Shown one piece after another: positions 1 through 25,383 of a DNA stretch of 64,000 nucleotides (positions within the stretch are counted from its first letter, which is position 1; each line of letters opens with the position of its first letter). A model generated the notes under the pieces. That model had not been told where the DNA came from, ran no database searches, and was given only the letters and a program-made list of their open reading frames with translations. The DNA comes from Acidobacteriota bacterium (lineage in GTDB: Bacteria > Acidobacteriota > Vicinamibacteria > Vicinamibacterales > JAKQTR01). The stretch is taken from assembly GCA_026393675.1 (NCBI GenBank), contig JAPKZQ010000015.1:1-64000 (forward strand), written 5' to 3'. A program made the translations under genes and the position numbers.

Positions 1-23
1 GCATACTCGGTGAACGTCGAGGG

Positions 24-111
24 AAGCCGTATGCGGGAAATCCGCACGTACGGTTTGACGAGGGGTTGCTGGTCCGTGCGTGATTCCACGGCGGACTGGG
101 GCCTACTCCAC
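24..111 (+). ncRNA. 3' end of a group II intron (domains V and VI)
   Basis: Positions 24-56 fold as a group II intron domain V. The 8-bp outer stem (AAGCCGTA with TACGGTTT) contains the AGC catalytic triad, and the inner stem CGG/CCG is capped by a GAAA tetraloop. Positions 66-111 can form domain VI, ending in CCTACTCCAC, which matches the usual 3' terminus with its bulged adenosine. The intron body and any reverse transcriptase/maturase lie left of the window, so class and mobility cannot be judged. The 3' exon junction is probably near 111. Confidence 0.82.
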
Positions 112-21359: not shown

Positions 21360-21932
21360 ATGTCTATTCTGAAGGTCGCGCGGATGGGTCACCCGGTCCT
21401 TCGCATCAAAGCGAAGACCGTCCCCGCGTCGGAGATCGTCGGCGCCGCGATCCAGGCCCTGATCGACAACATGATCGGGACGATGCTCGAGTACAACGGC
21501 GCCGGGCTCGCTGCGCCGCAGGTGCACGAAGGGATCCGGATCTTCGTGGCCCAGCCGGTGACCGAAGACGAGGAAGGCGAACAGGGCGCAGAGAAGGCGG
21601 GGGAGCGCAAGGCGGCCGAGCCCGGGGTGATGGTCATCATCAACCCCGAAATCATCCCCGTCGGCCGACACACCGTCGAGGACTGGGAAGGATGCCTCAG
21701 CATTCCTGATCTACGGGGTCTGGTGCCGCGGCACCGCGACATCAAGGTACGCGGGTTCGACCGCGAGGGCCAGCGCATCGAGATCGAAGCCAGTGGCCAC
21801 ATGGCCCGCGTCATGCAGCACGAAACCGATCACCTCGACGGCGTGCTGTTCCTGGACCGGATGAAGACGCTCCAGAGCCTCAGCTTCATCGACGAGTACA
21901 CGAGGTATCGCGCGGGGCACGATCAAGAGTAG
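21360..21932 (+). CDS. def: Peptide deformylase
   Basis: Removes the N-formyl group from nascent proteins. All three metal/active-site motifs are present: GAGLAAPQV (residues 48-56), EGCLSIP and QHETDHLDG. The 190-residue length is slightly above average because of an acidic-basic insertion (EDEEGEQGAEKAGERKAAEP) after the first motif. Start ATG 21360 gives MSILKVARMGHPVLR, the normal N-terminus. Confidence 0.95.
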   Translation: MSILKVARMGHPVLRIKAKTVPASEIVGAAIQALIDNMIGTMLEYNGAGLAAPQVHEGIRIFVAQPVTEDEEGEQGAEKAGERKAAEPGVMVIINPEIIPVGRHTVEDWEGCLSIPDLRGLVPRHRDIKVRGFDREGQRIEIEASGHMARVMQHETDHLDGVLFLDRMKTLQSLSFIDEYTRYRAGHDQE

Positions 21933-21959
21933 AAGCCAGAAGTAAGAAGCAAGAGCATC

Positions 21960-23495
21960 GTGATCGAAACCGCTCCGCCCCTCGTGACCCTGCGCAATGC
22001 GCCGACGGCGCCCTTTGACGGGGCGATTGCGGCGGCGCGGACGTGCTACTCGCCGCGGGTCATCGAGGTCGGCGAGATCACCGACAGGCAGCGCGAGACG
22101 ATCGGTTCGCTTACCTTCGACGCCGGCCACCACACCGTTTACCAGCACGCACACTTCGAGTTCGGCCTCGAGAACATCTCGCGCCAGTTCGTGTGGAGCT
22201 TCCTGCACGCGTACCCCTTCTACAACTCCGAGCAGTCGAGCCAGCGCTACGTCAGGCTGAACGAACCCCGGGTTTTCGTGCCGCCGCTCGAAGGCCACGC
22301 GCGTGCCGTGTACGAACAGGCCATCATCCGGGCCTGGGACGACTACGCGAAGCTGTCGGCCCTGCTGAAGCCGGACGCCTTCGCCATCCTGAAGCAACTG
22401 CGGTACGTGACGCCGCGCGCGTCGGCCCAGCGCCTGGGTGGCATCGAGCGCGAAGCCGAGAAGAAGGCCATCGAAGTGGCGCGCTACGTGATCCCGATTG
22501 CCGCCTTCACCTCGATGGTCCACACCGTGTCGGGCATCACGCTGCATCGCCTGCGCCGGATGATGAATGTCGGTGACACGCCCTTCGAAGCCAGGCAGGT
22601 CATTGGCGCGATGGTCGACCTGGTGAGCCGGCACGACCCGCTGTTTTTCGAGCGTGTCGGGCCCGAGCCGCTTGGCCGCGATGCCGCGCCCGAGACGGCA
22701 TTCCCCCGGCCCGTCGCCGGCGCGGACCGGTTCGCCAGGGAGTTCGACGCGAAGCTGGGCGGTCGGGTGTCCAGGCTGATCGACGCCTCCGATGGCGCCG
22801 AAACCCTTGTGGCCGATGCGGTGCGGACAACCTTCGGCCTCGCCGCCGACGAGCTGTCCGAAGACGAGGCGATTGACCGCGTGTTGAATCCAGCGCGCAA
22901 CCGCTACCGGCTGGACATGCTGAACGTGTCGTACCACTCGCCCCTGATGCGTGCGCTCAATCACGCCAGCTACACGTTCGCCAAGCGCATCAGCCACACG
23001 GCCGACTCGCAGGACCAGCGCCACCGCATGGTGCCGGCGTCGCGCCCATTGCTCACCTTTGCTGCGACCCGCGAGCCGGACTTCATCACGCCCCGGCTCA
23101 TCGTGAACAACGGACCCGCCAATGCGATCTTCCAGGAGTCGATGCGCGCCGCCTGGTCGGCCAGTAACCGCCTGATCGATCTCGGCGTGCCCGTTGAGTT
23201 CGCGGCCTATGTGCTGCCCAACGCGCTTGCCGTGCGGATGATCGAAACGGGCCCGCTCATCGCGCTCGTACACAAGTGGACCCAGCGGACCTGTTTCAAC
23301 GCCCAGGAGGAGATCTACGACGCGTCGATGGACGAGGTCGAGCAGGTGCGCGCGAAACACCCGAGGCTCGGGCGTTACATCGGCCCGCCGTGCGTCGTCC
23401 GCAATGGCCTGGTGGCTCCCCGCTGCACCGAGGGCACGCATTTCTGCGGCGTTCCGGTGTGGCTCAATTTTCCGAACGTCGAGCGACGACTGTGA
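21960..23495 (+). CDS. Double-length ThyX-like (FAD-dependent thymidylate synthase) protein
   Basis: A 511-residue protein built from two ThyX-like halves. Half one contains FYNSEQSSQRYV (residues 88-98), matching the last part of the ThyX signature RHRxxSxNExSxRY, but where RHR is expected it has SRQFVWSF. Half two contains DQRHRMVPASRPL (352-364), the first part of the signature, without the NExSxRY part. Together they might rebuild one composite site. Classical ThyX is about 220-250 residues. The start is GTG 21960, 27 bases after def; the stop overlaps the MFS start. Whether it makes dTMP is untested; no other thymidylate synthase is in the window. Confidence 0.85.
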   Translation: MIETAPPLVTLRNAPTAPFDGAIAAARTCYSPRVIEVGEITDRQRETIGSLTFDAGHHTVYQHAHFEFGLENISRQFVWSFLHAYPFYNSEQSSQRYVRLNEPRVFVPPLEGHARAVYEQAIIRAWDDYAKLSALLKPDAFAILKQLRYVTPRASAQRLGGIEREAEKKAIEVARYVIPIAAFTSMVHTVSGITLHRLRRMMNVGDTPFEARQVIGAMVDLVSRHDPLFFERVGPEPLGRDAAPETAFPRPVAGADRFAREFDAKLGGRVSRLIDASDGAETLVADAVRTTFGLAADELSEDEAIDRVLNPARNRYRLDMLNVSYHSPLMRALNHASYTFAKRISHTADSQDQRHRMVPASRPLLTFAATREPDFITPRLIVNNGPANAIFQESMRAAWSASNRLIDLGVPVEFAAYVLPNALAVRMIETGPLIALVHKWTQRTCFNAQEEIYDASMDEVEQVRAKHPRLGRYIGPPCVVRNGLVAPRCTEGTHFCGVPVWLNFPNVERRL

Positions 23496-24701: not shown

Positions 24702-25112
24702 ATGGCATTCAAGTACAGCTGCCCGGTGGAAGTCCGGTTCCGTGATTGCGACCCGATGGGGCACGCCAACAACGCGGTGTACCTTACGTATCTCGAGGTC
24801 GCGCGCTTCGCCTATTGGCGCGACGTGTGCGGGGGCCGCGGCTGGGGCGACATCAAGTTCATCATGGCGCGCGTCGAGGTCGACTACAAGGCGCCGGCAG
24901 AGCAGGGCAATGTGCTGGACGTACGCCTCGGGATCACCAGCTTCGGCCGGACCAGTTTCGTTTTCAAGTACGAGCTGCTGGACCAGCACAACCGCCTGAT
25001 CGCGACCGCGCGGACCGTGCAGGTGATGTACGATTACGCGACGAGCAAGCCGGTCCCCGTCCTGCAGGGGTTCAAGGACCGGGTTTCCGCCTTCGAGGGG
25101 GTGACGTCATGA
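24702..25112 (+). CDS. Hotdog-fold acyl-CoA thioesterase
   Basis: A 136-residue single hotdog domain of the 4-hydroxybenzoyl-CoA thioesterase/YbgC family. The signature VRFRDCDPMGHANNAVYLTYLE carries the catalytic aspartate, and VEVDYKAPAEQG is typical. It hydrolyses acyl-CoA thioesters; chain preference is unknown. ATG 24702 is preferred over TTG 24699 because GGGAG lies at 24691-24695. Its stop overlaps the ATG of the selenoprotein gene by 4 bases, so the two are probably co-translated. Confidence 0.9.
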   Translation: MAFKYSCPVEVRFRDCDPMGHANNAVYLTYLEVARFAYWRDVCGGRGWGDIKFIMARVEVDYKAPAEQGNVLDVRLGITSFGRTSFVFKYELLDQHNRLIATARTVQVMYDYATSKPVPVLQGFKDRVSAFEGVTS

Positions 25113-25321
25113 ATACTGTGCTCATCTTCGGCAAAGATACCTGACCGTACACGGAGGCCGCCCGTGACGACTATGCAAGGCGGCGTGTCGCGTTCGAGTA
25201 CGTCAACGTCAAGAAGAACCCCGGCGATCTCCAGCGGATGCTGGCCTACAGCAAGGGGCGCCGTGATGTTCCGGTGATCGTTGACGGCGAGAAGATCACC
25301 ATCGGCTTCGGAGGCACCTGA
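25109..25321 (+). CDS. Glutaredoxin-like selenoprotein (UXX-star type), UGA read as selenocysteine
   Basis: Reading through the in-frame TGA at 25142-25144 gives 70 residues: MNTVLIFGKDT-U-PYT, then EAARDDYARRRVAFEYVNVKK, then VPVIVDGEKITIGFGGT. The UPYT motif replaces the CPYT redox site of glutaredoxins. VPVIV is the cis-proline substrate-binding strand and GFGGT the C-terminal glycine motif, so the reading frame is plainly conserved on both sides of the UGA. I recall a bacterial UXX-star selenoprotein family with nearly the same GKDTUPYT core. The ATG overlaps the thioesterase stop; the final TGA is at 25319. A candidate SECIS hairpin follows the UGA. The role is probably thiol/disulfide or persulfide redox chemistry. 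Confidence 0.88.
25149..25188 (+). promoter_or_regulatory. Candidate bacterial SECIS hairpin
   Basis: Inner stem GCCGCC (25157-25162) pairs with GGCGGC (25179-25184). Outer ACAC (25149-25152) pairs with GTGT (25185-25188), with GGAG bulged on the 5' side. The 16-base apical loop starts 18 bases after the UGA and contains GUG. Distance and loop fit what SelB-binding hairpins need; they are known for variable sequence. The hairpin lies inside the coding sequence, as in other bacterial selenoprotein mRNAs. Confidence 0.6.
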
Positions 25322-25383
25322 GGAATTTAATTGGGATGGGGCCGCCGTGCGCGGCCTGAGAATGCGGGTGACGGGCCAGCTCG

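Follow-up and report, generated by a model that had tools for sequence, protein, structure and literature searches.

A predicted UXX-star family 1 protein with two selenocysteine residues in an Acidobacteriota genome

UXX-star selenoprotein family 1 (NCBIfam NF041114) is listed in a 2026 review as 'Distant Grx-like protein 1', with the motif UxxT and two selenocysteine (Sec) residues (PMC13188914). The selenocysteine insertion sequence (SECIS) elements of bacteria are described in the same source as lying within coding regions. The same domain, with a related C-terminal Sec motif, occurs in UXX-star family 2, family 3 and the HUGP/GUXX-star fusion (NF041211, NF047338 and NF045501, respectively), and the fold and the place of the active-site residue are also found in glutaredoxin 3 / Grx-1 (TIGR02181; PDB codes 3grx and 3ic4). 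The gene presented here is located at positions 25109-25330 of the forward strand in a 64,000-nucleotide stretch of an Acidobacteriota bacterium (GenBank assembly GCA_026393675.1, contig JAPKZQ010000015.1, positions 1 to 64,000), called the window below. It very probably encodes a UXX-star family 1 protein of 73 residues with two Sec. Both of its in-frame UGA codons are almost certainly read as Sec.

Gene model and family membership

The frame starts at ATG 25109, which overlaps the stop codon of a 4HBT-type thioesterase gene (24702-25112, forward strand; Pfam PF13279, 74.3 bits) in the form ATGA. A sequence-only reading of the window had pointed to this overlap, to an in-frame TGA at 25142-25144 in the position of the first Cys of the glutaredoxin motif CPYT, and to a frame that stays coding downstream of it, and all three were confirmed. 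With this TGA read as Sec, the match to Pfam Glutaredoxin is 41.7 bits against a cut-off of 22.9. The match to a glutaredoxin-type domain downstream of the first TGA is far above chance.

The profile search with the NCBIfam models also agrees with the proposed membership in the UXX-star family. The equivalog model NF041114, "UXX-star selenoprotein family 1", has a cut-off of 72 bits and gave 116.7 bits with the frame read to residue 71; the score rose to 120.0 bits, covering model positions 1-70 of 70, once the frame was translated through residue 73. The model extends beyond the TGA at 25319-25321, which had been taken for the stop of a 70-residue product, and the end of the gene was therefore moved to 25330. 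The 3' end of the gene reads TGA-GGA-ATT-TAA (25319-25330, forward strand), giving the C-terminus GFGGT-U-G-I and a true stop codon TAA at 25328-25330. The family is named after this arrangement of a C-terminal U, two residues and then the stop. The product is MNTVLIFGKDTUPYTEAARDDYARRRVAFEYVNVKKNPGDLQRMLAYSKGRRDVPVIVDGEKITIGFGGTUGI, with Sec at residues 12 and 71. The Sec reading given earlier is thus right but incomplete, and the second Sec, already known for the family, was missed only in that first reading of the present gene.

Judged by its sequence, the gene is a newly found member of an already catalogued family, and its protein is ordinary for that family. It shares with the other members of family 1 a score above the cut-off over the whole model, the two Sec residues and the U-x-x-stop end. 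The differences are not substantial: the stop is TAA here, and in most relatives the hairpin 3' of the gene lies about 5 nt closer to the UGA. The models of family 2, family 3 and the fusion stayed below their cut-offs, with 59.9 of 100, 55.5 of 97 and 60.1 of 325 bits, respectively. It had been stated that gene callers would report nothing at this position. This holds for a plain open reading frame (ORF) caller, which lists no such ORF, but not for the NCBI annotation library, which has the family model.

Conservation of the two selenocysteine codons

The comparison is based on 49 orthologues. The first set has 44 distinct sequences, 43 from the phylum of the window (Acidobacteriota) and one from a Desulfobacteraceae contig; five further orthologues, which have UPHT instead of UPYT, are part of the 49 and absent from the codon and hairpin counts. 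L053, a divergent relative from the deltaproteobacteria without the U-x-x-stop end, was left out. A paralogue (L050, in G043 C111) has Cys at both sites, in CPYT and in the C-terminal GLGCIV, and gives 60 bits with the family model.

The first Sec codon (25142-25144, forward strand, residue 12 of the U-P-Y-T motif) is TGA in 44 of the 49 orthologues and TGC or TGT in the other five, and the UPHT set matches this pattern too. Cys-containing orthologues at this position, which had been named earlier as a point to check, were thus found, and no other codon occurs there. In one genome, an in-frame TGA at residue 12 would look like a nonsense mutation in a decayed glutaredoxin gene, with no product past residue 11. 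Such decay is contradicted by the recurrence of this TGA in 44 orthologues from many families, by the strong protein-level constraint downstream of it and by the full Sec system of the organism; the explanation is refuted by conservation and has practically no probability left.

The second Sec codon (25319-25321, forward strand, residue 71) is TGA in 49/49 orthologues, and in every one a stop comes after exactly two further codons. The orthologues with Cys at position 12 still carry this C-terminal Sec. As far as the codons indicate, Sec and Cys interchange at position 12, while the Sec at position 71 is never exchanged in the sample of 49. Variation in the two codons 3' of UGA71 is mainly synonymous (pS 0.65, pN 0.13), which argues that they are translated. 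The final stop is TGA in 33/49 orthologues and TAG or TAA in 16/49. In the 33 (for example L025, L031, L036 and L062) the Sec71 UGA and the stop UGA are six nucleotides apart, so that one UGA must be Sec and the next must be a stop.

It is important to compare this with a simpler protein that has only Sec12 and a genuine stop at 25319, the hairpin downstream being a terminator or a chance fold. The 70-residue product would keep nearly the whole glutaredoxin domain, as the 116.7 bits obtained up to residue 71 indicate. However, if the codon at position 71 were a terminator, it would be expected to vary between TGA, TAG and TAA, as is seen for the next stop; it is invariant, the two codons that follow are under protein-level constraint, and the NF041114 model continues through this TGA. 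A protein with a single Sec is therefore very unlikely, and a second Sec at residue 71 is the preferred interpretation.

Candidate SECIS elements and selenocysteine machinery

The published criteria for bacterial SECIS elements are a G in the first two places of the loop, a distance of 16-37 nt from the UGA and a minimum free energy of -7.5 or lower. The candidate SECIS of the second Sec codon is a hairpin at 25339-25357 (forward strand) with a 7-bp stem, the loop CGUGC at 25346-25350 and an energy of -14.3 kcal/mol. It is spaced 24 nt from the UGA, agrees with these criteria in loop, spacing and energy, and lies entirely 3' of the stop codon. The hairpin in the window has no T-run 3' of it, which speaks against a terminator.

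Hairpins in the same region of the orthologues were located in each sequence separately, with shuffles and neighbouring stretches as the comparison. Each hairpin is the best in its stretch, and the flanking stretches and shuffles are therefore the control that counts. In 39/43 orthologues a stable hairpin is centred 22.5 +/- 1.9 nt after UGA71, and its loop always contains GG or GU. In twelve neighbouring stretches of these loci, 0-18 such hairpins were found per approximately 44 sequences, mostly fewer than 10 and with scattered centres. The stems after UGA71 are built from different base pairs in different orthologues. Owing to the offset between the hairpins of different orthologues, aligning this 3' region with MAFFT yielded no consensus structure. 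We consider it likely that the UXX-star SECIS is located wholly 3' of the stop codon and that, in most members of the phylum, it lets one UGA be read as Sec and the UGA six nucleotides further on as a stop.

The candidate SECIS of the first Sec codon is located inside the gene, at 25157-25184 (forward strand). The predicted fold consists of a GCCGCC...GGCGGC stem and an inner CGUG/UAUG stem, with an energy of -16.5 and a spacing from UGA 25142 that both fit the SECIS criteria; in the best fold, however, ACGAC forms the apical loop, with G only in the third place. The Ala codon after the first UGA is GCC in 38/39 Sec forms. CGT is used for the next Arg in 35/39 Sec forms and in 0/5 Cys forms; elsewhere in these genes, 21/177 Arg codons are CGT. 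Restriction of CGT to the Sec forms is as expected for a SECIS element, and this codon constraint supports a putative SECIS in the gene.

The organism had been expected to possess SelA, SelB, SelD and tRNA-Sec. All four components are present in its own genome: tRNA-Sec (anticodon TCA), selA, selB and selD were each found above the respective cut-off. Neither of the two findings named beforehand as refuting the Sec reading, a genome lacking this machinery or orthologues with sense codons other than Cys/Sec at the first UGA, was thus made. SelD is a selenoprotein itself, with an in-frame TGA at the active site in the sequence SGUASK (own genome C8, L017). Within the phylum, selA was found in 30/33 genomes with UXX-star and in 161/264 genomes without it (n=297; Fisher p 4e-4, not corrected for kinship).

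Several observations weigh against the interpretation given here. The fold predicted after the first UGA does not stand out from those of shuffled sequences (z 0.37). On the best tree, the association of Sec with CGT corresponds to about four Sec/Cys switches, and well-supported branches force only one of them. The selA gene was not found in 3/33 genomes with UXX-star, nor, among the relatives, in G045; the UXX-star gene of the latter (L027) has Cys12 and Sec71, and its genome is a draft of 780 contigs. The missing selA in those genomes may perhaps be due to incomplete drafts.

Predicted structure, proposed mechanism and gene neighbourhood

The AlphaFold2 model, calculated with Cys in place of Sec, is a confident minimal glutaredoxin fold without the final helix (predicted local distance difference test, pLDDT, 96.9). 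The closest solved structure is the glutaredoxin from Archaeoglobus (PDB code 3ic4). The cis-Pro motif VP is conserved, and U-P-Y-T is located in the catalytic place. In comparison with glutaredoxin 3 / Grx-1, the present protein lacks the last helix, has U-x-x-T and not C-x-x-C, and carries a Sec near the GGxDD position. The score with TIGR02181 is 35.7 bits, below the equivalog cut-off of 90 bits, and membership in that group is limited to a common fold. Judged by the motif, Sec71 would be positioned beside the active site, close to where the GGxDD glutathione-binding loop of glutaredoxins has its first Asp.

In the proposed mechanism, translation would be coupled to that of the thioesterase gene with which the frame overlaps. 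SelB and Sec-tRNA(Sec) would read UGA 25142 by means of the in-gene SECIS and UGA 25319 by means of the hairpin 3' of the stop codon, and the ribosome would then terminate at UAA. Sec12 would be the attacking residue of the predicted minimal glutaredoxin. Sec12 and Sec71 may work as a redox pair that undergoes selenylsulfide or diselenide exchange with a substrate carrying a thiol or selenol; this is the most likely mechanism, with about even chances of being correct. The main rival is that the two Sec residues (or Cys and Sec) chiefly bind a soft metal or metalloid and do not take part in redox exchange. This is a somewhat less probable function, in view of the glutaredoxin fold, the U-P-Y-T at the catalytic place and the conserved cis-Pro motif; in addition, the neighbours in the phylum (thioesterase, Thy1 and deformylase) give no hint of metal handling. 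Redox exchange is thus preferred to metal binding.

The genes for Thy1 (ThyX-type) and peptide deformylase are neighbours of UXX-star in the window (21360-23495) and in loci of the same order, where they are found on either side and on either strand. In the order of the window, Thy1 is near UXX-star in 18/21 regions and peptide deformylase in 16/21; in regions from other orders Thy1 is near it in 0/19. A functional link between UXX-star and Thy1 was considered and rejected, the linkage being confined to one order, and inherited gene order therefore explains it. Genes for the ABC and FtsX-type transporters located downstream occur in only 3/40 regions. Gene order tells little about function. 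At a different site of the window (22-111) there is an Rfam group II intron match of 50.6 bits.

The gene model is corrected to two Sec residues, 73 residues in total and an end at 25330. The 49 relatives show the build of the family: a first site at which Sec and Cys are exchangeable, a C-terminal Sec that is invariant in this sample and a SECIS-like hairpin after the stop. With ends of the type UGA-x-x-UGA, the selectivity of Sec insertion for its codon can be tested directly. If the SECIS indeed lies wholly past the stop codon, these genes would be a natural test of the codon precision of SelB, and would depart from the common description of bacterial SECIS elements as parts of coding regions.
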